Origin: Bacteriovoracaceae bacterium
GTDB lineage: Bacteria > Bdellovibrionota > Bacteriovoracia > Bacteriovoracales > Bacteriovoracaceae
Length of the DNA stretch: 64,000 bases
Reading direction: 5' to 3'
Assembly (NCBI GenBank): GCA_019752535.1
Contig: JAIEMA010000045.1
Span: 1 to 64,000 of the forward strand
The notes below the pieces were generated by a model, which was not told where the DNA came from, ran no database searches, and saw nothing but the letters and a program-made list of their open reading frames with translations. Shown here in pieces: positions 1-10,504 of the stretch. The position numbers and the translations under genes are program-made. Each line of letters begins with the position of its first letter. Position 1 is the first letter of the stretch.

Positions 1-878
1 TCTAGTGAGGAGACTGAGAGTAAAAGAAACAAACATATCGAAAGTGGATCCACAGGATGACCCATCCACCCCATCCCACCATAAACAAGAGCGGCTGAAT
101 AAATCACTGAGATAAAATAAAGGGGTCCAGCCTTCCAAGATCCAAACATCCATTTAAACGCAAGAATGATTATAAGTATTCCCAAAAAATTGAGCCACTG
201 AGATTCAGAGAGACCAACCATCGTGAAGTACTCTTGAGCCGATGTCCCACTTATCTGAGTTTCAAGAGGGATGAGATTTTTGACCTCACTTATAAGCTGT
301 TCGATCAACTGCGGATTAAATGTTCCATAGGTACCCGGAGGATTCAGAGGCTCTAGGCTTAAATTAAAAGCCAAATCCTTAATTTCTTTTCCTGAAATAA
401 GTTGCGACCAAGGAGTTGATTGAATGAAGGACAAATCAACCAAACGATCCGGTTCTCCCAAGCAGACATCATCAATTAATGGCATGTAAAATAGCTTATT
501 TCCCTCAATTTTCGATCTTCTAATATCAAAGAGTGAAAATGAATCTTTAACTTCAACATGGTTTTCTTTAATTTTTTGGATGGCCCTCTTGATGAGGCAG
601 AGATCAATGGCCTTAAATCCTGTCTTTGGCGCCATCACAATGAAGCCGAATGAGGATTGAGCTCCGAAATTATTTTTTAGAGACTTAAGGTCTTTGGTCG
701 ATTGAAGTTTTGAATCCAGTTGATCTTCAATGGAGACCACTTGATGCAATCGGCTTGCCCCAAAAAGAGCGATGATAAATATAAGCAAGCTGACCGAAAG
801 AATCAGCTTGGGTCTAAGCCATGAAGCCTTAATCATGCCTGTGAGCAATTTATCAAAATTCTCAAGTCTAGATCGCAC
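1..878 (-). CDS. RND/MMPL-family exporter, N-terminal part (runs off left edge)
   Basis: The reading frame stays open to the left edge, so only the N-terminal ~292 residues are present. One membrane helix near residues 20-38 is followed by a ~200-residue soluble loop and then two or more hydrophobic helices (LGILIIILAFKW; FISVIYSAALVYGG). That is the TM1, periplasmic loop, TM2-TM3 plan of hydrophobe exporters of the RND/MMPL superfamily, which move lipids or hopanoid-like molecules. I prefer the GTG at 878: it overlaps the previous stop by 11 bases, follows an AAAAAGG ribosome site, and adds a short amphipathic N-terminus (RLENFDKLLTG). An ATG at 836 is the alternative. Translational coupling to the upstream desaturase fusion suggests it exports the product of that pathway, which is inference. 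Confidence 0.7.
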   Translation of the reverse strand, partial: MRSRLENFDKLLTGMIKASWLRPKLILSVSLLIFIIALFGASRLHQVVSIEDQLDSKLQSTKDLKSLKNNFGAQSSFGFIVMAPKTGFKAIDLCLIKRAIQKIKENHVEVKDSFSLFDIRRSKIEGNKLFYMPLIDDVCLGEPDRLVDLSFIQSTPWSQLISGKEIKDLAFNLSLEPLNPPGTYGTFNPQLIEQLISEVKNLIPLETQISGTSAQEYFTMVGLSESQWLNFLGILIIILAFKWMFGSWKAGPLYFISVIYSAALVYGGMGWMGHPVDPLSICLFLLLSVSSL

Positions 879-2631
879 TCATCGCCTTTTTGATGTACTT
901 GTCCATTGAACGAACAAAAATGAGAAAGACTTTCTTTCCTGGCTCGTCAATTAGAGCATTGAGTTCAGCTTTAGCTTTCAGGGAGTAGTCTTGAACTTTA
1001 ATGTTTTCAGACTTGAGCCATTCTTGAACCTTTGAATTTCTTGCCCATGATTTATCTGGACTTTTATTCGGCCAGTGCTCTCCAAAAACTTCTACGGGTA
1101 TATTAACCAATCCCTTATCTAGATCTTCCTCGAGATCGCGATACATTGAGCACCAAGCAAAGACATCCAAGATTGAGGGCGCATCTTTTGTCCGAAGTGA
1201 GCTACCCATTGAAATCAGCAATATATCAAGTGATGTGGAGAAGGTTTTACGATGTTGAGCAATCAGTTGATCGTAATTGAGTTCAAGCTTATTAACGACT
1301 CTTGAGCGATCAAACATCATCGCTTCAATCACGACTTTTAAAATCTCTACGCCCTCAAGATAATCAGGACTGGATTTAAGTTGGGAGAGATAGACTTTAA
1401 ACAGTTGATGGAGATCTGATTGGCCCCAGTCGTTGGTTTCAAGACATTGCAAAACTTTTGCCACCACCTCAAGAGGCTCTCCTTGGCACTTTCTATCACC
1501 ATCAAGGAGGTCATCCACGACTTGAAGAGCACAAAATCCATGCCTCAGCCTTTTGGCCATTTTCCAATTTTTAAATGAGAAACTATACAAAATAAAGGCG
1601 ATAGAAGCGTATCTTTTATTTCTTAGGCTAAATTGAATAAACTGCTTAAAGCAATTCCATTCACAAGACTCTTGTTTCTCTACTCTTAAATCTTCATCAG
1701 ACGAGAGCTCATTTTTAATATCTTCTTTGAGAATGGGATTTGGAGCTTGCGCCGGTCTTGGACCTTTCCACATTTCAAAATATATTTTCAAGAAGGAAGG
1801 TTGTGGCTCATGGGGGTCAACATGCTTAGGTAAATGATTCCAAGGAAGCTTTGGATTCATGTGATGCACTTGATGGTAGTGATAATTCAAAAAAAACCAG
1901 CGCGTGATTGGATTTACTTTTAAATTCCAAGCCCCTTTGAGTATATCGCGTGGAGACCAGGCATGATCGGCGTATTGAAGCGAGCCCCAAAAGAGACCGA
2001 AGACCCAAAAACATGCCAGAGTTTGAAGAAATTTTAAATCAAGCAAAAGATAGATCGCTACTTGCAGAGCGATCACAAAGAGCAGTTCAAAACGTATACG
2101 CCATTTTTTAGGATGATCGATAAAGGGATGAAGCATGATCGCACCCGTGTGTTTAATCGCCACATTGTCCGTTTTTAGGAGTCGATAGCTCCACGGGCAA
2201 ATCAGATAAGTGAGCCATCCAATAGGAATTGTGAGCCAATAGATACCAGTCAAAATGGAATAGAATTGGGCGCGCTTCAAAAATAAATTGTCTTCTTCGT
2301 AGTACATGTCAAACATTTCATGATCTGTGCGATTTCTTAAATGATGACCGAGATGACAGACGCGCTGAAAGGTCAGTCCTGTGGGAAAAAGGGCCCCATT
2401 GATAATGCCCATAATTTCATTGAGCCACTCAGTGTGCGAATAAACTCGGTGCACACTTTCATGTAGCAGAGCAAAGATGGTATTAGCGACATAGGAGAAG
2501 AGGAATATACAACCTAAAATGACGGGAATCGATTCAGAATGAGAGACCACGTAGAGACACATTAAAAACAAAAATATAGCCGCCAAATTAATGCTGAGAT
2601 TGAGCAAATTATTTGGCTTCGCTGATTTCAT
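868..2631 (-). CDS. Fatty-acid-desaturase fused to squalene/phytoene-synthase-like domain
   Basis: 587 residues with two domains. Residues ~10-290 form a membrane di-iron desaturase/hydroxylase with several helices and the His boxes HESVH (57-61), HLGHH (93-97) and HYHQVHH (251-257). Residues ~325-587 look like a head-to-head isoprenyl diphosphate synthase: VVDDLLDGDR (371-380) matches the first aspartate-rich motif, and YRDLEEDLDKG (497-507) followed by NIPVE matches the second motif of phytoene/squalene synthases. The linker ~295-325 is charged. The N-terminal half is closely similar to the separate desaturase at 8172-9146. I know of no characterised enzyme with this architecture. Joint action on an isoprenoid substrate is inference, and the synthase half could instead be a non-catalytic relative. 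Confidence 0.82.
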   Translation of the reverse strand: MKSAKPNNLLNLSINLAAIFLFLMCLYVVSHSESIPVILGCIFLFSYVANTIFALLHESVHRVYSHTEWLNEIMGIINGALFPTGLTFQRVCHLGHHLRNRTDHEMFDMYYEEDNLFLKRAQFYSILTGIYWLTIPIGWLTYLICPWSYRLLKTDNVAIKHTGAIMLHPFIDHPKKWRIRFELLFVIALQVAIYLLLDLKFLQTLACFWVFGLFWGSLQYADHAWSPRDILKGAWNLKVNPITRWFFLNYHYHQVHHMNPKLPWNHLPKHVDPHEPQPSFLKIYFEMWKGPRPAQAPNPILKEDIKNELSSDEDLRVEKQESCEWNCFKQFIQFSLRNKRYASIAFILYSFSFKNWKMAKRLRHGFCALQVVDDLLDGDRKCQGEPLEVVAKVLQCLETNDWGQSDLHQLFKVYLSQLKSSPDYLEGVEILKVVIEAMMFDRSRVVNKLELNYDQLIAQHRKTFSTSLDILLISMGSSLRTKDAPSILDVFAWCSMYRDLEEDLDKGLVNIPVEVFGEHWPNKSPDKSWARNSKVQEWLKSENIKVQDYSLKAKAELNALIDEPGKKVFLIFVRSMDKYIKKAMSAI

Positions 2632-2679: not shown

Positions 2680-3621
2680 ATGGCTTCTGCACAAATTCTA
2701 AAATCTTCACCCCATGGCTGGTACTACATTGGTGCTTCAAAAAGTATTCAGGCGCCAAAATTCGTCACAGTCGCTGAAGAAGAGATTGTCGTTTATAGAG
2801 GAGAAAATGGCCATTTCTACGCCGTTCAATCCCGCTGCCCACATATGGGAGCAGCGCTTAATAAAGCGAAAGTCAGAGGGAATAGTCTCCAATGCTCACT
2901 CCATCAATGGACGTACAATAACCAAGGAAAATGCACAGGAATTCCCGGCTCTACCCAAGAGAGTATTCCTGAATTTGCTAAGCTTGATGTTTACTCAATT
3001 GAAGAGAGACATGGCCATCTCTTTGTCCATTCAAAGAGAAATGAAGTCCGAACACTACCCTTCTTTCAAAATGAAAATCCTAACGACTATAGCTGCGCTC
3101 ACGTAAGACTTCTCAAAGGGAATAACCACTGGAGTGTCCCTGCGGCAAACGCCTTTGATTTAGCTCATTTTGAATATGTTCATCACAGAAAACCCACTGC
3201 CCCACCGATCATAGATAAATCGGAGCAACAAAAAAGAGGCATCAAACTTCAATATGAAATTTTAGGTAAAGAAGCGGCAGATAAATGGTTGGTAAAAAAA
3301 TACGGTAAAAATGCACAGCTAGATTACACCGTTTATGAAGGAAATCTCATCGTCGCAAAAACAACAGTAGGAAAATTCACAAATCACATGATGGTATTTA
3401 TTGAAGCGGAAGGTGATAAATGGAAAGCCTGGCTGTTTGTTTTATCAAAAACTAATAATCATTTACTCAGTAAAATTAAAAATGAAATAAGTGCATATTT
3501 CTCTTATCAATTTTTTGCCAAAGAATGCCTTGAACTTGATGGCGTGACCATTTCTCCAGAACGCCTAGGCCCAAAAGATGAGCTTTTAAGAGACTATATG
3601 AATTGGCTTACTACTCTCTAA
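2680..3621 (+). CDS. Rieske [2Fe-2S] non-heme iron oxygenase
   Basis: 313 residues. The N-terminal Rieske domain has Cys53-x-His55 and Cys72-x2-His75 (SRCPHMG; QCSLHQW). The catalytic half contains NAFDLAHFEYVHH (157-169), the D/N-x2-H-x4-H mononuclear iron site of Rieske oxygenases. The size and a single-component layout resemble oxygenases acting on ring systems such as chlorophyll derivatives, sterols and cholesterol (PaO, KshA, DAF-36 types), but no closer subgroup can be named. It is divergent from the desaturase fusion and its stop codon overlaps the stop of the PAP2 gene by 4 bases (CTAA). A reductase partner is not encoded nearby. Confidence 0.88.
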   Translation: MASAQILKSSPHGWYYIGASKSIQAPKFVTVAEEEIVVYRGENGHFYAVQSRCPHMGAALNKAKVRGNSLQCSLHQWTYNNQGKCTGIPGSTQESIPEFAKLDVYSIEERHGHLFVHSKRNEVRTLPFFQNENPNDYSCAHVRLLKGNNHWSVPAANAFDLAHFEYVHHRKPTAPPIIDKSEQQKRGIKLQYEILGKEAADKWLVKKYGKNAQLDYTVYEGNLIVAKTTVGKFTNHMMVFIEAEGDKWKAWLFVLSKTNNHLLSKIKNEISAYFSYQFFAKECLELDGVTISPERLGPKDELLRDYMNWLTTL

Positions 3622-4253
3622 GGTTTCCATCTAAAAGCTGGATCAATATCTTTCGATTGATAAATGAGATGGCAGCCAGTCGCCAAAAGAACTCCACCCA
3701 CAATATCCAAAAGATGATGCTGCCAAGTGAAAAGAACGGCTAAGCAAATTGTGGAAAACCACAAAAAGAAAAACAATTTGTAATTTGTATTCACCTTCGA
3801 CCATAGGGCCATCACAGTCAGAGCCGAATATGTGATGTGTAGCGAGGGAAGAGTATTACTGGTTTTATCCAGGGACCAAATAATTTGAAAGATAAAATCT
3901 AAAGACTCAGCATGAGAAGGACGGATAAATCCGATAGGAGCAGGAAAAAAATAAAAGATGGCGCCAGCAATGAATGTGACAATCGCTAATTTTCTTCCCA
4001 ACAGACGCATCTCACTGGGATTCAGAATAAAAACGGGAACGGCCGTCAAAAGATTGAGTGAAGTGTAAGGCAGAATCATCCAGGGGATGAGTGGTATCGT
4101 GAGCTCCCAATCGAAGTAAAACTTATAAAGTTTTTCAGCATGATCTGCATGCCAATTGGTGTAACCATAAATTGCAGAAAAAACGATTGTTAACCAAGTT
4201 CCAGTCCATAAAAACTGATACAAACTTGGCAGACTGAATTTAAACGATTTCAT
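3618..4253 (-). CDS. PAP2/AUR1-like membrane phosphatase or phosphotransferase
   Basis: 211 residues with about five to six membrane helices. The PAP2 motifs are recognisable: GFIRP (109-112), LPSLH (135-139) with the catalytic His139, and HHLLD (179-183), the His-x3-Asp of motif 3. The spacing resembles AUR1/inositol-phosphoceramide-synthase-like PAP2 proteins more than soluble acid phosphatases. In this setting it may release isoprenoid or lipid diphosphates or transfer a head group. The ATG overlaps the upstream desaturase by 14 bases, so it is the last gene of the minus-strand operon that begins at 8119. Substrate unknown. Confidence 0.75.
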   Translation of the reverse strand: MKSFKFSLPSLYQFLWTGTWLTIVFSAIYGYTNWHADHAEKLYKFYFDWELTIPLIPWMILPYTSLNLLTAVPVFILNPSEMRLLGRKLAIVTFIAGAIFYFFPAPIGFIRPSHAESLDFIFQIIWSLDKTSNTLPSLHITYSALTVMALWSKVNTNYKLFFFLWFSTICLAVLFTWQHHLLDIVGGVLLATGCHLIYQSKDIDPAFRWKP

Positions 4254-5082
4254 TTTGATGCTTATAACCAGGTATCACATAGTTTTTAAAAATAAAGCCA
4301 AAGAGACTTAATTCATTAAGCTCAGGCTTGATTCTTGGAATAACCATTTTTCTATGGATAACAGCCAACTCACTCCAATGAGCTGAGGGCTGAAGATGAT
4401 GGGCCGAATGATAACCATTGTTAAAAAGAAAAAAATTCACAATTGGTGATATAAAATTCCGACATCGATTCACACCATTATTATTCTCAAGGCCATCGTG
4501 CTGAACCAAGTTGATAACAAAGAGAAGGCAGAGAGCAATTAAGCGCGTGAGCACATAGAAAATGGCAAATCTGGCAGGAGAGATCGCCAAGAGGACAACG
4601 ACTAAGCCGAGAATTAAGCGCGACTCTATCTGGGAGCGAAGAAAAAGAGACTTAGGAATATCCGCGCCTCCCTCTCTCTTCGAAAGCTTAGGAAGTGAGA
4701 AGACATGCTTAATATAATTTAAAATTCGAAGTATTCCCCACTGATCTTTTAGCACCGTTGAGCGCATCCAATCATTGTGATCATTGTTATGAGCGTGATG
4801 ATTATAGATATGTGACGCTGCAATTGGTGCCGAAGGAATCCCCATCAAAGTGGAGAGATAAAGAAAAAAGTAGTGATTTAATTTTTTAGAAACGAAGACG
4901 GGCAAATGAGAGGCATTATGATTCATCACATGCCCCATCAAAGTGAAGGCGATATTGAGAAGCACTAAGATGACTTGCTCCCAAAGGGTTAACTTCGCGA
5001 ACATCGAAATAATAAGAAGAGCACCCGCTAGCCCAGAGGCATAGAGGGTGCTGCGATCGGCTTTATTTCTTAAAATTTTCAT
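4240..5082 (-). CDS. Membrane fatty-acid desaturase/hydroxylase-type di-iron enzyme
   Basis: 280 residues from the ATG at 5082; a TTG four codons upstream would give 284. Histidine boxes are visible as HNASH, HIYNHHAHNNDH, QHDG and GYHSAHH, set among hydrophobic helices. This is the fatty acid desaturase/CrtW/alkane-hydroxylase superfamily. It is not a close paralogue of the other two desaturases in the window, so it probably acts on a different bond or substrate. It sits 4 bases after the stop of the secreted protein gene and overlaps the PAP2 gene. Confidence 0.82.
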   Translation of the reverse strand: MKILRNKADRSTLYASGLAGALLIISMFAKLTLWEQVILVLLNIAFTLMGHVMNHNASHLPVFVSKKLNHYFFLYLSTLMGIPSAPIAASHIYNHHAHNNDHNDWMRSTVLKDQWGILRILNYIKHVFSLPKLSKREGGADIPKSLFLRSQIESRLILGLVVVLLAISPARFAIFYVLTRLIALCLLFVINLVQHDGLENNNGVNRCRNFISPIVNFFLFNNGYHSAHHLQPSAHWSELAVIHRKMVIPRIKPELNELSLFGFIFKNYVIPGYKHQNEIV

Positions 5083-5086
5083 TCTT

Positions 5087-6583
5087 CTATTCAATAATAT
5101 CGGCTAAAGGCATCGCACTCATCCAACTTCCCCAACTCTGAGAGAGAACTCTCACACTTGCAGGAATATCTTTACCCGTTTTCACATCTGGGAAAATTTG
5201 CTTATACGTTTGCGCATCCCAATTATTTGCTCTTCCGATTTCATAGTTGCGATACTTCACCGTTTGAACTTTGCCAGAAGCATCTTTTAAACTCATTTCT
5301 TTCCACTCGCTGCCTTCGACAAATGCAGTAGGAAGAAACGCTTTTAAATCTTGTGGAGGATTTTTATAGAAGGCTGGAAGATCAACCTTCACCATCTCAC
5401 CGGTGATCGCACTTCTGATTTGAGCAGGTCCCTCAACGATGGCTAACATATTTTCAATCGAGAGATCACTGCCACGCTCATAAGCTCGGGCAAATGAAGT
5501 ATCAAACAGGAAAGCCTCAGTCAGTGGACGATCTTCTCGCTTGATTTGATCCCACACCATCGCTGTTAATCGAACGCTCTCTTGAAGATGATGGAAAGAC
5601 TGAGCCATCCATTCTTGTCCGTCTGGCAAAAGGGTTCCGTAATTCTTGTAAGTCGATTTTCTTAGAACATTTGTTCTCTTTGATGATGGGGCTCCATCAA
5701 CTTCTGAAAGAAATCCGTCGACTCCATAGAGTTTTCCCATATCTTGAAACAGCTTCATTGAATTCTCAGATGAATAGGCTCTTTGATAAGAGATTTGAGC
5801 AAGAGAGCTATGAATTGACGCTAGAGAGCTAATACGCTCGACTTCACCGACTAAGCGAAAGCGATCGACATCATCGACAAAAGACGCTTTACCAAAGAAC
5901 AATTTATTATCCCAAACGATTGTCTTCCCATTGAGATCAATGGCCTGAATTCTCTTCGCTGCCTTAAGCATCGAGCTTCTTACAGGGCCAGAGAAGTGAG
6001 ATACAAGATCTGATTCATTCTTGAATGTTTCGGCTACTTTCCCCTCTCTAACGTAAGGAGTTGTAATATATTCAAAACCAGCACTCCACTGCTCAGTAGG
6101 AAGGAAGATCTTCATACTCGATTGAGTATTCTTAAGCATCGTCAGCACATAGCTATGGGTGATTTTCGCTTTGCTAAAAACAGGAGCACTTCTCCAGGCA
6201 ATCCCTCTTAATTCACGAAGAGGAAGGACATGGGCGACAAAGAACTTTTGGTCTTCATCCTTAAATGAGCCATAGTTCTGCTCAAGATCGTTAAGAAAGG
6301 CTTCAATCTCATCGGCCGATTTCAATTTCAAGAACTGATCACGGGTTTTTCTAAAGGCGTCACTCATCATCGACTCATCGCCAGAGTTTTGATTACTAGG
6401 ATTTCTCTTCTGGTTAGAAAACTTCGCCTTTCCTTCTTTCACTTTCGACAATGTTGTCCAAGTGTAGGCGTTTTCCTCAGCTTTATAAGGAGCTTTCTTT
6501 GAAACTTCTTGGCCATACGGAGAGGGTTTGGCGAACCCAAGCGTTGGAACCAATAGTGCTGTGATTAAAAGATACTTTTTCAA
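5087..6583 (-). CDS. Secreted protein of unknown family in the desaturase operon
   Basis: 498 residues with a clear signal peptide (KKYLLITALLVPTLGFA). The start is TTG: it lies 5 bases after a strong GAGGAGG ribosome site and directly follows the TAA of the upstream gene, while no usable ATG exists nearby. The mature protein is soluble, rich in Ser/Ala/Lys, with no membrane helix and no motif I recognise. Being embedded among lipid-modifying enzymes, it could be a periplasmic enzyme or a lipid-binding or heme-binding factor. It contains several conserved-looking aromatic stretches (SFHHLQESVRL; NYEIGRANNWDAQTY) that could help find homologues. Function not assigned. Confidence 0.8.
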   Translation of the reverse strand: MKKYLLITALLVPTLGFAKPSPYGQEVSKKAPYKAEENAYTWTTLSKVKEGKAKFSNQKRNPSNQNSGDESMMSDAFRKTRDQFLKLKSADEIEAFLNDLEQNYGSFKDEDQKFFVAHVLPLRELRGIAWRSAPVFSKAKITHSYVLTMLKNTQSSMKIFLPTEQWSAGFEYITTPYVREGKVAETFKNESDLVSHFSGPVRSSMLKAAKRIQAIDLNGKTIVWDNKLFFGKASFVDDVDRFRLVGEVERISSLASIHSSLAQISYQRAYSSENSMKLFQDMGKLYGVDGFLSEVDGAPSSKRTNVLRKSTYKNYGTLLPDGQEWMAQSFHHLQESVRLTAMVWDQIKREDRPLTEAFLFDTSFARAYERGSDLSIENMLAIVEGPAQIRSAITGEMVKVDLPAFYKNPPQDLKAFLPTAFVEGSEWKEMSLKDASGKVQTVKYRNYEIGRANNWDAQTYKQIFPDVKTGKDIPASVRVLSQSWGSWMSAMPLADIIE

Positions 6584-7243
6584 TTAGGCCTCCTCATGAG
6601 TCATGATAAAGATTGCGTCTTGTTTTATTCCAGATTCATTAAACATTTGATTATTTTTAAAATGATAAAAAGGAGGCAAAGCCGAAGTGGCTTTAAGCGT
6701 TTCTCCCTCACCTAACATGGCCCCAGGCGCGATCGCACTCATGGTGCCGACAATCGCTCGATTTCCAATTTTCGGTTCTCCAAAAATTAAGCTCAATTTT
6801 AAAGTCTTTGGATCTTTCGTTAGAAGATGAGAAGTCATCTTCGCGCCATAACCCAACACCGCTTGATCTCCAATCTCCACAAATGGGCGATCAGCAATCA
6901 GAACTTTGGGAGACCAAAAGACAAACTTTCCAACCTTGGCGCCCCAAAGACGCAGCCAAAAACTGTAGAGCCCAGGCACCAGGCGCAAAAGCTCTTCAAG
7001 AAAACTAAAGCGCATGAAAGGGACCTGAAGTTGTGTTGTAATCCACCAAGCGTAGGCACTCTTAGAAGGCACAGGACTATTATTTTCTGGCTTCCCTAAA
7101 ATGAGCAATGTCACACGAGCGAGAAAGGGAGGCATAAGATAAAGTGCCACCACCGCGACCCATAGAGGATAAGCGTAACCAAGCCATGCGATCGTAACCG
7201 CCAAGGCAAACCCAATATAGTTAATGGCAATCCAAGTAATCAT
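6584..7243 (-). CDS. Membrane-anchored hexapeptide-repeat (left-handed beta-helix) acyltransferase-like protein
   Basis: 219 residues. Two hydrophobic helices occupy residues ~1-50. From ~100 on, the sequence shows hexapeptide-type turns (GAKVGKFVFW, VEIGDQAVLGYGAKM, IGNRAIVGTMSAIAPGAML), as in trimeric LbetaH acyltransferases. The catalytic His of classical acetyltransferases is not obvious. Start and stop abut both neighbours (TAG/ATG upstream, TAA/TTG downstream), so it is translated with the AurF-like gene and the secreted protein. A role in acylating the pathway product is inferred from context. Confidence 0.68.
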   Translation of the reverse strand: MITWIAINYIGFALAVTIAWLGYAYPLWVAVVALYLMPPFLARVTLLILGKPENNSPVPSKSAYAWWITTQLQVPFMRFSFLEELLRLVPGLYSFWLRLWGAKVGKFVFWSPKVLIADRPFVEIGDQAVLGYGAKMTSHLLTKDPKTLKLSLIFGEPKIGNRAIVGTMSAIAPGAMLGEGETLKATSALPPFYHFKNNQMFNESGIKQDAIFIMTHEEA

Positions 7244-8119
7244 CTACCAGCCTAAAAAAGCAAAATGCTTAAAGTAAGAATCAGATTCTTTGTGAATCAA
7301 TTTAGAGAACACTTTTCTCGTCGCTGGGAAGGCCGGATGAATCCAGAGCACCCAAGAGATAAATTTTGAAAAAAGATAAAATTTCTTGAATGTATTTTCT
7401 TTATAAAACACGCGACTCATCAACTTCCAAGCCGGACTAATCAGACACACTTGAGTCATCAGGACACACATCAAGGTGGCCACATGAAGTCTCACTCTTT
7501 GAATGAGTGTCATCTTTTGAATTTCATCTCTTAGTAATTCAAAATCTTTGGCGATGTGGCTCGCTTCATCAATCGCGTGATGTTTTACAAGTGAAGCCCA
7601 TCGATTTTCAATTTTTGAATTTTTGCTTAAAGCAACATGATACTGAACGGCATAAATCTCAGACTTGGCCCCTGGTAGAAACACCGCCAGTGGTTCCCAA
7701 CGATAAAGCCAGGCACAAAATTTTCTGCTCCAAGATTTTTGATGGAGAAAAAATGAAGTCTCGGGCCAGCAGCCCTTTGATTCTTCTGAAAGAAATTTTC
7801 TAAACTCATCAATGTGAAGAATTTCATCACTGATAAACTCTTTCATTCCCTGATCAAGTTTTAAGCCACGCTTCTCAAGCACTTTTGAAGAGAGCAGCAA
7901 TCCTTGCTCAAGATGAATGATCACTTCTGCATTGAGTTGCACAAAGCCCCACGCGAGCTCGCGTTTTTGCTCATCACTTAAAGAATCCCAAACAGAAGTG
8001 TTGAAGAAAGGAGTTTGATTTTCATCAAATTCCAGATTCACCCAACTCTTTTGCTTGTAGGCTTCCCAGTGAATGGGATAAGCATTTGTTACCGATTGAA
8101 GATTAGTTGCAGCAGTCAT
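7244..8119 (-). CDS. AurF-like (p-aminobenzoate N-oxygenase family) diiron protein
   Basis: 291 residues from the ATG at 8119; a TTG at 8140 is possible but has no better ribosome site. It is helical, with ligand-type motifs in ferritin-like order: EVIIHLEQ, ISDEILHIDEF, an E/H pair in KSEIYAVQYH, and KHHAIDEASHIAKD. This matches the AurF/diiron oxygenase family (PF11583-like), whose members oxidise arylamines or other small substrates. It is the first gene of the minus operon and divergent from the desaturase at 8172 with only 52 bases between them, so both may share control. Specific substrate unknown. Confidence 0.72.
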   Translation of the reverse strand: MTAATNLQSVTNAYPIHWEAYKQKSWVNLEFDENQTPFFNTSVWDSLSDEQKRELAWGFVQLNAEVIIHLEQGLLLSSKVLEKRGLKLDQGMKEFISDEILHIDEFRKFLSEESKGCWPETSFFLHQKSWSRKFCAWLYRWEPLAVFLPGAKSEIYAVQYHVALSKNSKIENRWASLVKHHAIDEASHIAKDFELLRDEIQKMTLIQRVRLHVATLMCVLMTQVCLISPAWKLMSRVFYKENTFKKFYLFSKFISWVLWIHPAFPATRKVFSKLIHKESDSYFKHFAFLGW

Positions 8120-8171
8120 CCCAAAAAGTATAATTTCCAAAGGTTCAGACTACAAGCAAGCAAGGACGACC

Positions 8172-9146
8172 ATGGCGCGCGGAGTATATTTAGGAAAGGA
8201 AATCACGATCCCCGGAACGCTAAATATATTCATAGCTTTATCCGCCTATTCTCTTGCGATCCTTTGTTTATATTTTGCGGCCACGTCCAACACCCTTTGG
8301 ACATACTTGATCAGCACACTCTGTTTTTCCTATATTGGCAATACTCTCTTCTCTCTGCTGCATGAAAGTGTCCACCGGGTCTTCCATCCCAACAAAACCT
8401 TAAACGATTTGTTTGGCGTTTTTTCAGCGGCTTTTTTTCCCACTGGTTTCACTCTCCAGCGTGCCTTTCATCTGGGTCATCATCGACGCAACAGAACTGA
8501 TGTTGAAATGTTCGATATGTATTACCCAAGCGATAGTAAACTTCTTAAAAGACTTCAGATGTACACCATCCTCTTGGGCTTTTACTGGACGTCGGCCCCT
8601 ATTGCAGGACTGGCCTACCTCTTCGCTCCTTGGCTTTTAAACATTCCTCTTCTGCGCTCTCCTGATCCACGCATTCAAAGAATGAGTGCCGATGCCATGC
8701 TCTCTGGCATTGAGAAAGTGAATCCTCTTAAAGCGCGAGCGGAACTTCTCTTCACTCTTCTCTTTCATCTCGCCCTTGGCTATTTCATGGGATTAAGTTT
8801 CTGGAAATGGCTCGGATGCTACTGGGCCTTTGCAATCAATTGGGGCTCTCTTCAATACGCTGATCATGCCTGGACCAAGAGAGATATTCGCCACGGGGCT
8901 TGGAATTTAAAAGTGAACCCGATCGTTCATTGGATTTTTCTTCATTATCATCATCACAAATCACACCATGAAAACCCTCAGGTCCCTTGGATTCATCTGC
9001 ATAAATTCGTTGATTTCAAGGAAGAGCGTCCCACTCACTTTTCTATATGGCTTAAGATGTGGAAAGGCCCAACGTTAACGCAAGAATCTTCACCAAAGGC
9101 CCTCGATAAGTCTTTTGAGGACGCATTGTACGAAAGCCCTCAATAA
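8172..9146 (+). CDS. Membrane fatty-acid desaturase, paralogue of the fusion's N-terminal domain
   Basis: 324 residues with His boxes HESVH, HLGHH and HYHHHKSHH, plus shared blocks such as RNRTD-EMFDMYY, WGSLQYADHAW and GAWNLKVNP that are nearly identical to the fused desaturase at 868-2631. It lacks the synthase domain, ending in a ~25-residue polar tail. The ATG is preceded by AAGGA at good spacing. The two copies bracket the cluster in opposite orientation, indicating an old duplication. Probably introduces a double bond or hydroxyl into a lipid chain; regiochemistry cannot be told. Confidence 0.88.
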   Translation: MARGVYLGKEITIPGTLNIFIALSAYSLAILCLYFAATSNTLWTYLISTLCFSYIGNTLFSLLHESVHRVFHPNKTLNDLFGVFSAAFFPTGFTLQRAFHLGHHRRNRTDVEMFDMYYPSDSKLLKRLQMYTILLGFYWTSAPIAGLAYLFAPWLLNIPLLRSPDPRIQRMSADAMLSGIEKVNPLKARAELLFTLLFHLALGYFMGLSFWKWLGCYWAFAINWGSLQYADHAWTKRDIRHGAWNLKVNPIVHWIFLHYHHHKSHHENPQVPWIHLHKFVDFKEERPTHFSIWLKMWKGPTLTQESSPKALDKSFEDALYESPQ

Positions 9147-9208: not shown

Positions 9209-10504
9209 ATGAAAACACTATTGTCACTATGCTTAGTTTTATTCAGCTTTTCTCTTTTTGCCCAAGATAAATACTACGGGGCCAAATCCACAGAAGCTAT
9301 TTTACGCTTTGAAGGAAAAATTGAATTAACTCCGGGTCTCGCGGCAGCTCAAAAAAAAGAAGCCATCGATTCTCAAGTTCAACATTTAATCGGCTATTTT
9401 CAATCTGAAAGTTTCCTAGACGCTTTTCGATTCCCAGGTGTCTTAGGACAAAAATATAAAATTATCTTGAAAGGCCAAAAAATTAAAGGTGACATGGTTG
9501 AAGTGAGCTATCACTTCGAAGGAAAAACCAATTTCCATAGAAGTGTATTTAGAAATGGCCGCAAAACTCAAATCCCACTCAGCCTTCCCTACAACATCGA
9601 TAAAATTTATGAACTCGGAGTCGTGCGTGGAAAGAACTTATGCTCCGATGAACACTATAACTCTGAAGGTGACTTCTTCTATTTCTGGGATCCCGATAAG
9701 GATGAGTGTCCTCTTAAAGGAAACACAACAGATGTCTTGAGAATAAATGGCACACTAGATGAACTAGAAAATACCACTTCTACTTACCCTGAATACGATC
9801 GCCTCTATCAAAAAGATAAAATTAAAGTCGCCGTCTTTATCGGCTACATCGACGGGCCCACCAACCGTGACTCAGGTGCCTACTCTTATAGAGGTCTTAA
9901 AGAGAAATTCACAGATCTTGGATTTGAACTTAAAGAAGAGAAAAAATTATTTCGCCATAGCGGCCAAAGAGTGACTCAAGGAGTGAACTATCTTGCCACT
10001 TTTTCAGGCATGACAAAAACGGCTTTGGGCACAAACAGCGAAATTGAAATTCAATTGATGCTCGCTGAAACAGAAATGGATAACCGCGATTCCACTTTTC
10101 ATAAATATTTAATTGAGGCTTATGAGAACGCTGACATCATCGCTTATGATGGACATTCTGGTCTGGGTGGAAACCTTGATCTGAACTCACTTCCGACAGT
10201 CAATTTTAAGCGCAACTATCAGATCATCTTCTTTAATGGTTGCAGCTCTTATCCTTACTACAATCAAAACTATTTTGCGGCCAAACCAGGCGGCAGTAAA
10301 AATCTTGATATCATCACGGCGGGTCTTCCGACTCTGACATCGACATCAGAAGACAACATGATGGCTTTCCTGACTCCTTTCCTCAAAGGCTATCTCTCAA
10401 GCTGGCAAACCCTGATGAATCGCCTTGAAGCGTCAAATGGTGAAGAGACGACTTATTTGATGGGTGTGAACGGCGATGAGGACAATCAATTCCGTCCGCG
10501 CTGA
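9209..10504 (+). CDS. Secreted caspase/gingipain-like (clan CD-like) protein
   Basis: 431 residues with signal peptide (LLSLCLVLFSFSLFAQ). The C-terminal half has a Rossmann-like beginning (KIKVAVFIGYID) and then a plausible clan CD His/Cys dyad: ADIIAYDGHSG with His316, and QIIFFNGCSS with Cys345. Each follows a hydrophobic strand, as in gingipain and caspase folds, and the 29-residue spacing is gingipain-like. Residues ~20-190 are an unassigned N-terminal domain. This suggests a periplasmic or exported cysteine peptidase, or an inactive relative. No Shine-Dalgarno precedes the ATG. Confidence 0.6.
   Translation: MKTLLSLCLVLFSFSLFAQDKYYGAKSTEAILRFEGKIELTPGLAAAQKKEAIDSQVQHLIGYFQSESFLDAFRFPGVLGQKYKIILKGQKIKGDMVEVSYHFEGKTNFHRSVFRNGRKTQIPLSLPYNIDKIYELGVVRGKNLCSDEHYNSEGDFFYFWDPDKDECPLKGNTTDVLRINGTLDELENTTSTYPEYDRLYQKDKIKVAVFIGYIDGPTNRDSGAYSYRGLKEKFTDLGFELKEEKKLFRHSGQRVTQGVNYLATFSGMTKTALGTNSEIEIQLMLAETEMDNRDSTFHKYLIEAYENADIIAYDGHSGLGGNLDLNSLPTVNFKRNYQIIFFNGCSSYPYYNQNYFAAKPGGSKNLDIITAGLPTLTSTSEDNMMAFLTPFLKGYLSSWQTLMNRLEASNGEETTYLMGVNGDEDNQFRPR

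Follow-up and report, generated by a model that had tools for sequence, protein, structure and literature searches.

A single gene at the start of the analysed window, which comes from an uncultured bacterium related to the predatory Bdellovibrio type, encodes a 587-amino acid protein in which an N-terminal membrane desaturase/hydroxylase is fused to a C-terminal domain with a predicted isoprenoid synthase fold. The window consists of the first 64,000 nucleotides of a contig of 71,439 bases (assembly of 3.49 Mb, 97.5% complete and 1.6% contaminated). The fusion protein is best interpreted as a membrane-anchored bifunctional enzyme that would make and oxidise an isoprenoid for export, a reading to which we give a probability of about 0.6. 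The ORF is encoded by the minus strand, a point on which the preliminary description was silent. It is open for 587 codons with no stop or frameshift between its two halves, as originally described, and many stops are found in the plus strand. A plausible ribosome-binding site (TTGAGGATTTATG) lies just before its ATG at position 2631. The three His boxes and both Asp motifs reported previously were found at the exact residues in this one ORF (Table 1); the two Asp motif regions read VVDDLLDGDR (residues 371-380) and YRDLEEDLDKG (residues 497-507).

Table 1. Coordinates of the fusion ORF, of its domains and motifs, and of the surrounding gene cluster in the window.
Feature	Position	Strand	Remarks
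Fusion ORF, 587 aa: N-terminal membrane desaturase/hydroxylase and C-terminal SQS/PSY-like domain of predicted isoprenoid synthase fold	868..2631	-	
FA_desaturase domain, residues 1-294	1750..2631	-	PF00487, E 5e-21
His box 1, HESVH (57-61)	2449..2463	-	H57, H61 invariant
His box 2, HLGHH (93-97)	2341..2355	-	H93, H96, H97 invariant
His box 3, HYHQVHH (251-257)	1861..1881	-	H251, H253, H256, H257 invariant
Linker, residues 295-323	1663..1749	-	Aligned with the natural C-terminal tail of the L024 stand-alone desaturase
Divergent SQS/PSY-like domain, residues 324-587	871..1662	-	
First Asp motif, DDLLDGD (373-379)	1495..1515	-	D373, D374, D377, D379 invariant in six homologues
Second Asp motif, RDLEEDLDKGLVNIP (498-512)	1096..1140	-	R498, D499, D503, P512 common with ordinary SQS_PSY proteins
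MMPL/RND exporter, truncated by the contig end	3..878	-	Full-length homologues in L022, L023, L024
Rieske oxygenase, divergently transcribed	2680..3621	+	Closest NCBIfam model 4beta-methylsterol monooxygenase SdmA, below cut-off
PAP2-type lipid phosphatase/phosphotransferase	3618..4253	-	
Second membrane desaturase/hydroxylase	4240..5094	-	Weak CrtR similarity
Putatively secreted 498-aa protein, conserved with the cluster	5087..6583	-	No Pfam match
Hexapeptide-repeat acyltransferase-like protein	6584..7243	-	
AurF-like di-iron oxygenase	7244..8140	-	
Stand-alone paralogue of the desaturase half	8172..9146	+	48% identity

The same full-length fusion is found in two other MAGs of the genus, with 62% and 59% identity (L022 and L023). 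Chance and assembly error are thus unlikely, and an artefact was rejected as the origin of the fusion. Only three further genomes among the 368 of the phylum encode the C-terminal half (C-half). All three represent other genera within the family, and their version stands alone, with a length of about 260-277 aa. Its gene overlaps the desaturase gene by ATGA in G149, is spaced from it by 35 bases in G080, and lies about 2 kb away in G062 (Bacteriovoracaceae UBA6261), the intervening segment holding Rieske, PAP2 and membrane-protein genes. When aligned with the two separate L024 proteins, the fusion has its junction just where the desaturase naturally ends and the synthase naturally begins. The three fused proteins group together in the trees of each half (support 98/98 for the desaturase half and 85/87 for the synthase half; unrooted trees with long branches), so that one fusion event would be the simplest history. 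The single scan across the genome collection relied on peptide words, which pick up close relatives only and set the scope for distribution outside the phylum. The viral contigs searched yielded no relative, and a tblastn match in a Variovorax megaplasmid (E 0.03) was discarded as due to chance, because it falls in an alcohol-dehydrogenase region without a synthase ORF. No description of a fusion between a His-box desaturase and a synthase was found in the literature searched, which left most subscription journals outside its scope.

The N-terminal half (N-half) has the three His boxes of the membrane di-iron desaturase-hydroxylase superfamily and matches Pfam FA_desaturase (PF00487) over residues 36-277 with E 5.2e-21 and 76 bits (cut-off 29.7). 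All box histidines, together with H223, are invariant in eight homologues, the stand-alone paralogue of the cluster included. No equivalog model was approached by the N-half (DesA, E 0.0031, far below cut-off), and its assignment as a probable desaturase or hydroxylase therefore derives from family membership; the CrtR model matched the paralogue at 8e-5, also far below cut-off. A PDB profile search with the desaturase alignment returned nothing. The model of the full-length fusion is of low confidence around the His boxes, too poor there for interdomain geometry, and the fold search carried out with it was dominated by the C-half. Two clusters of genome G019 carry desaturase, PAP2 and Rieske genes, one of them also an MMPL gene, and no recognisable synthase. 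The desaturase family is thus broader than the synthase and may not need it.

The C-half had been presented as a phytoene/squalene-synthase-like domain with both Asp-rich motifs of head-to-head prenyl synthases. Its two Asp-rich metal-binding motifs, DDxxDxD and RDxxxD, are invariant in all six homologues found, and the residues common with canonical members of the family are D373, D374, D377, M438, D441, R498, D499, D503 and P512. The profile search against squalene/phytoene synthases was less favourable. The domain of the window protein matches Pfam SQS_PSY (PF00494) with E 0.24, the best match being that of the G002 homologue (E 3.2e-5, 24.2 bits) followed by the one of G149 (E 6.3e-4), all below the curated cut-off of 26 bits; three of the six homologues gave no match at all. 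With a canonical profile made from 20 ordinary SQS_PSY proteins of the phylum, two of the six domains outscored all 3000 shuffled sequences. HH-align against 20 canonical proteins of the phylum gave a probability of 40% and, as a single comparison, an E-value of 3e-4, which is supportive and weak. Searching the PDB with the C-half alone retrieved chance matches only, and the six-member profile retrieved only the CrtM-like 8is6 (E 0.23).

Several hallmarks of SQS_PSY proteins are replaced in the C-half, namely QxxN, the YCYRVAGxVG helix and GRxYLP. In the QxxN that precedes RDxxxD, both Q492 and N495 are found in 20 of the 20 reference proteins; the first position is now variable and the second an invariant Ser (S495). 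The Y...VAGxVG segment is replaced by QHxxTFxxSxD (T463-F464-x-x-S467-x-D469), GRxYLP by GLxNIP (R508 to Leu and Y510 to Asn), and the KSF of canonical SKSF (340-342) is also replaced in the divergent family. Many of the new residues do not vary among the six homologues (T463, F464, S467, D469, S495, L508, N510), so that the C-half looks like a coherent divergent family, not like decay.

Structure prediction agreed with the isoprenoid synthase fold expected for this half, and no other fold emerged. The AlphaFold model of the C-half, built with four homologues as input (pLDDT 88.4, pTM 0.86), has eleven helices and zero strands. The best match in VIA-align is HpnC (4hd1; Z 19.1, rmsd 3.5 A over 244 residues), followed by a CrtM-like protein (Z 18.7) and CrtM (17.8); for this predicted model these matches stand above the background given for mostly helical models, whose typical best Z is 14. 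Next are the carbazole prenyltransferases CqsB4 and LvqB4 (16.7 and 16.6), abietadiene and taxadiene synthases (16.6) and human squalene synthase (15.6), the class I terpene cyclases staying at Z 16.6 or less, behind HpnC and CrtM. A Z of 8 or more was reached by 924 of the 1000 Foldseek-ranked chains, and the rows listed are isoprenoid-synthase-fold proteins; the Foldseek E-values are modest, no better than 1e-3, and cyclases and trans-prenyl synthases occur among the matches. The HpnC/CrtM-type alignment and the fold match suggest that the two Asp motifs face one cavity. The fusion and both Asp motifs thus stand as first described, and the isoprenoid synthase fold is supported by prediction. 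The head-to-head identity is not established, because the SQS_PSY scores lie below cut-off, otherwise invariant positions (QxxN, VAGxVG, GRxYLP) are replaced and folds associated with other chemistries score close behind.

SQS-like proteins can act as aromatic prenyltransferases, and the carbazole enzymes with this activity have an SQS-like scaffold on which both Asp motifs are retained (PMC7466098). The C-half might then be of the NzsG/CqsB4 kind, moving one prenyl group to a non-prenyl acceptor (aromatic or lipid) subsequently oxidised by the desaturase half. The position of CqsB4 and LvqB4 among the top structural matches and the changes at positions invariant in ordinary SQS_PSY proteins are consistent with this possibility, but the neighbouring genes include none recognised as making aromatic precursors, and the carbazole enzymes score lower than HpnC and CrtM; we consider it unlikely. 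It is quite improbable that the C-half acts as a class I terpene cyclase with an SQS/PSY scaffold, making a cyclic terpene for the cluster oxygenases to decorate. Its second motif is RDxxxD (RDLEED) and not the NSE/DTE triad of cyclases, none of the six homologues has a terpene-synthase Pfam match, and the Z of cyclases is below that of HpnC, although class I cyclases rank first in Foldseek by E-value and the gene has several oxygenase genes around it, a pattern found in terpene clusters. Less probable still is a C-half that has lost catalysis and binds prenyl diphosphate or acts as a scaffold for the desaturase: the loss of the Asn at position 495 and of other pocket residues would fit, as would its faster divergence (50% identity between the closest species, versus 75% for the N-half), but the invariance of D373, D374, D377, D499, D503 and R498 down to 28% identity is hard to explain without metal-dependent catalysis.

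No SQS_PSY protein was detected at the search threshold in the genome that carries the fusion. The genome has two polyprenyl synthases able to supply substrate. G080 holds an ordinary SQS_PSY protein in addition to the divergent synthase, which argues for different jobs of the two.

The fusion gene belongs to a cluster extending from window position 1 to about 9.1 kb, most of whose genes recur at related loci. The stop of the synthase overlaps the start of the MMPL gene at all four loci where MMPL follows, by 11 bases in the window, 26 in L022, 14 in L023 and 8 in L024. The MMPL gene does not come next in G080 and G149; the overlap there is between the synthase gene and PAP2 and Rieske genes. 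The MMPL homologue of L023 matches the sterol-sensing/MMPL group (30.8 bits, cut-off 22.3), and the MMPL homologues match the HpnN model weakly. By analogy, these sterol-sensing/HpnN-like transporters and the SdmA-like Rieske oxygenase point to a hydrophobic isoprenoid-type substrate and to its export. The divergent fusion and Rieske genes are separated by 48 bases (2632-2679) containing TGTATAAT, a −10-like box that faces the Rieske gene.

Other conserved genes were observed in or beside these clusters. The putatively secreted protein of about 500 aa (5087-6583), which has no Pfam or NCBIfam match, travels with the cluster and is also found in L022 (2040-3599), in L058 (2554-4059) and twice in L024 (6422-7879 and 17032-18561). 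A multi-pass membrane protein of about 200 aa that matches no family is encoded in three clusters (L024 13263-13901, L057 2975-3574, L054 11932-12558), being placed in L024 between PAP2 and the synthase. A conserved block coding for a GH3-type ligase, a second Rieske oxygenase and a third protein (L024 18596-21769, L058 9043-12403) adjoins the cluster in two genera and was not seen in the cluster of the window. At 9209-10504 the window encodes a 431-aa protein with no Pfam match, and an RDD membrane protein follows; L022 has conserved counterparts of the two (67% and 50%, respectively).

If the fusion is the bifunctional enzyme proposed here, Mg2+ held by the two Asp motifs of the cytosolic C-terminal domain would ionise a prenyl diphosphate of the FPP or GGPP class, which the domain would then condense or cyclise. 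The hydrophobic isoprenoid product would be oxidised in the adjacent membrane by the N-terminal di-iron desaturase/hydroxylase. Membrane desaturases that have been characterised keep their His boxes and C-terminus on the cytosolic side, and the C-terminal domain would therefore adjoin the di-iron site. The Rieske, AurF-like and second desaturase enzymes encoded nearby, together with the PAP2 phosphatase, might process the product further, and the translationally coupled MMPL pump would then export it to the envelope. The cluster looks as if it builds and exports a heavily oxidised isoprenoid lipid. The likeliest single reaction of the C-half is the head-to-head coupling of two prenyl diphosphates, a choice that we make tentatively. 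A bolder and more doubtful proposal is that the C-half represents a new subfamily of the isoprenoid synthase fold, its site rebuilt around the invariant S495, D469 and D379 and hence not performing standard head-to-head coupling, and that its fusion to an O2-dependent membrane di-iron enzyme yields a new class of exported, oxidised membrane isoprenoids in Bdellovibrionota.

Fusions hint at which enzymes share a molecule, and this one links an enzyme of membrane oxygenase type with a divergent offshoot of the squalene/phytoene synthase fold, in a phylum known for predatory bacteria and whose envelope lipids have been little explored. With it comes an uncharacterised, compact gene cluster (synthase, PAP2, Rieske, AurF-like, desaturases and MMPL). 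Because its synthase scores below the Pfam cut-off, routine profile searches would overlook this cluster. The fusion is a concrete enzyme to express, and its divergent catalytic domain merits biochemistry.

Head-to-head synthases act via a presqualene-type intermediate, and in prenyl synthases with this fold two Asp motifs face each other (PMC7839719). The C-half resembles HpnC/HpnD and CrtM in its predicted fold and in the positions of both Asp motifs, of MxxD and of RDxxxD...P. It differs from them by scoring below the Pfam cut-off, by the replacement of the QxxN, VAGxVG, GR and SKSF positions and by its fusion to a membrane desaturase, in a genome that gave no match to the C-terminal model of squalene-hopene cyclase. 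As in hopanoid clusters, the fusion is coupled to an MMPL transporter, here one with weak HpnN similarity. NzsG and CqsB4 have the SQS-like fold and Asp motifs in common with the C-half, but they transfer prenyl groups to aromatic acceptors and are stand-alone enzymes of actinomycete carbazole clusters. The N-half shares PF00487 and the His boxes with hydroxylases and ketolases of the CrtR/CrtW type, to which the paralogue has weak matches; similarity is far below the equivalog cut-offs. Fusions of synthases are known from fungal CarRA/CrtYB (phytoene synthase and lycopene cyclase) and from the trifunctional beta-carotene synthase of Aurantiochytrium (PMC3153474, PMC5924542). In Bdellovibrionota, ORFs of about 813-834 aa that combine SQS_PSY with an N-terminal CrtI-like amine oxidase were observed at L032, L036, L045 and L046 (genomes G298, G299, G300 and G038). 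They are phytoene desaturase-synthase fusions, with an SQS_PSY domain of E 1e-74 in L032. Like the fungal and Aurantiochytrium enzymes and the CrtI-CrtB fusion of L032, the protein described here joins an SQS_PSY-type synthase to an enzyme acting in the next steps. The partner in CarRA/CrtYB-type and CrtI-CrtB fusions is a cyclase or the FAD-dependent CrtI, whereas here it is an N-terminal His-box enzyme of the oxygen-dependent membrane desaturase family, and the synthase is divergent.
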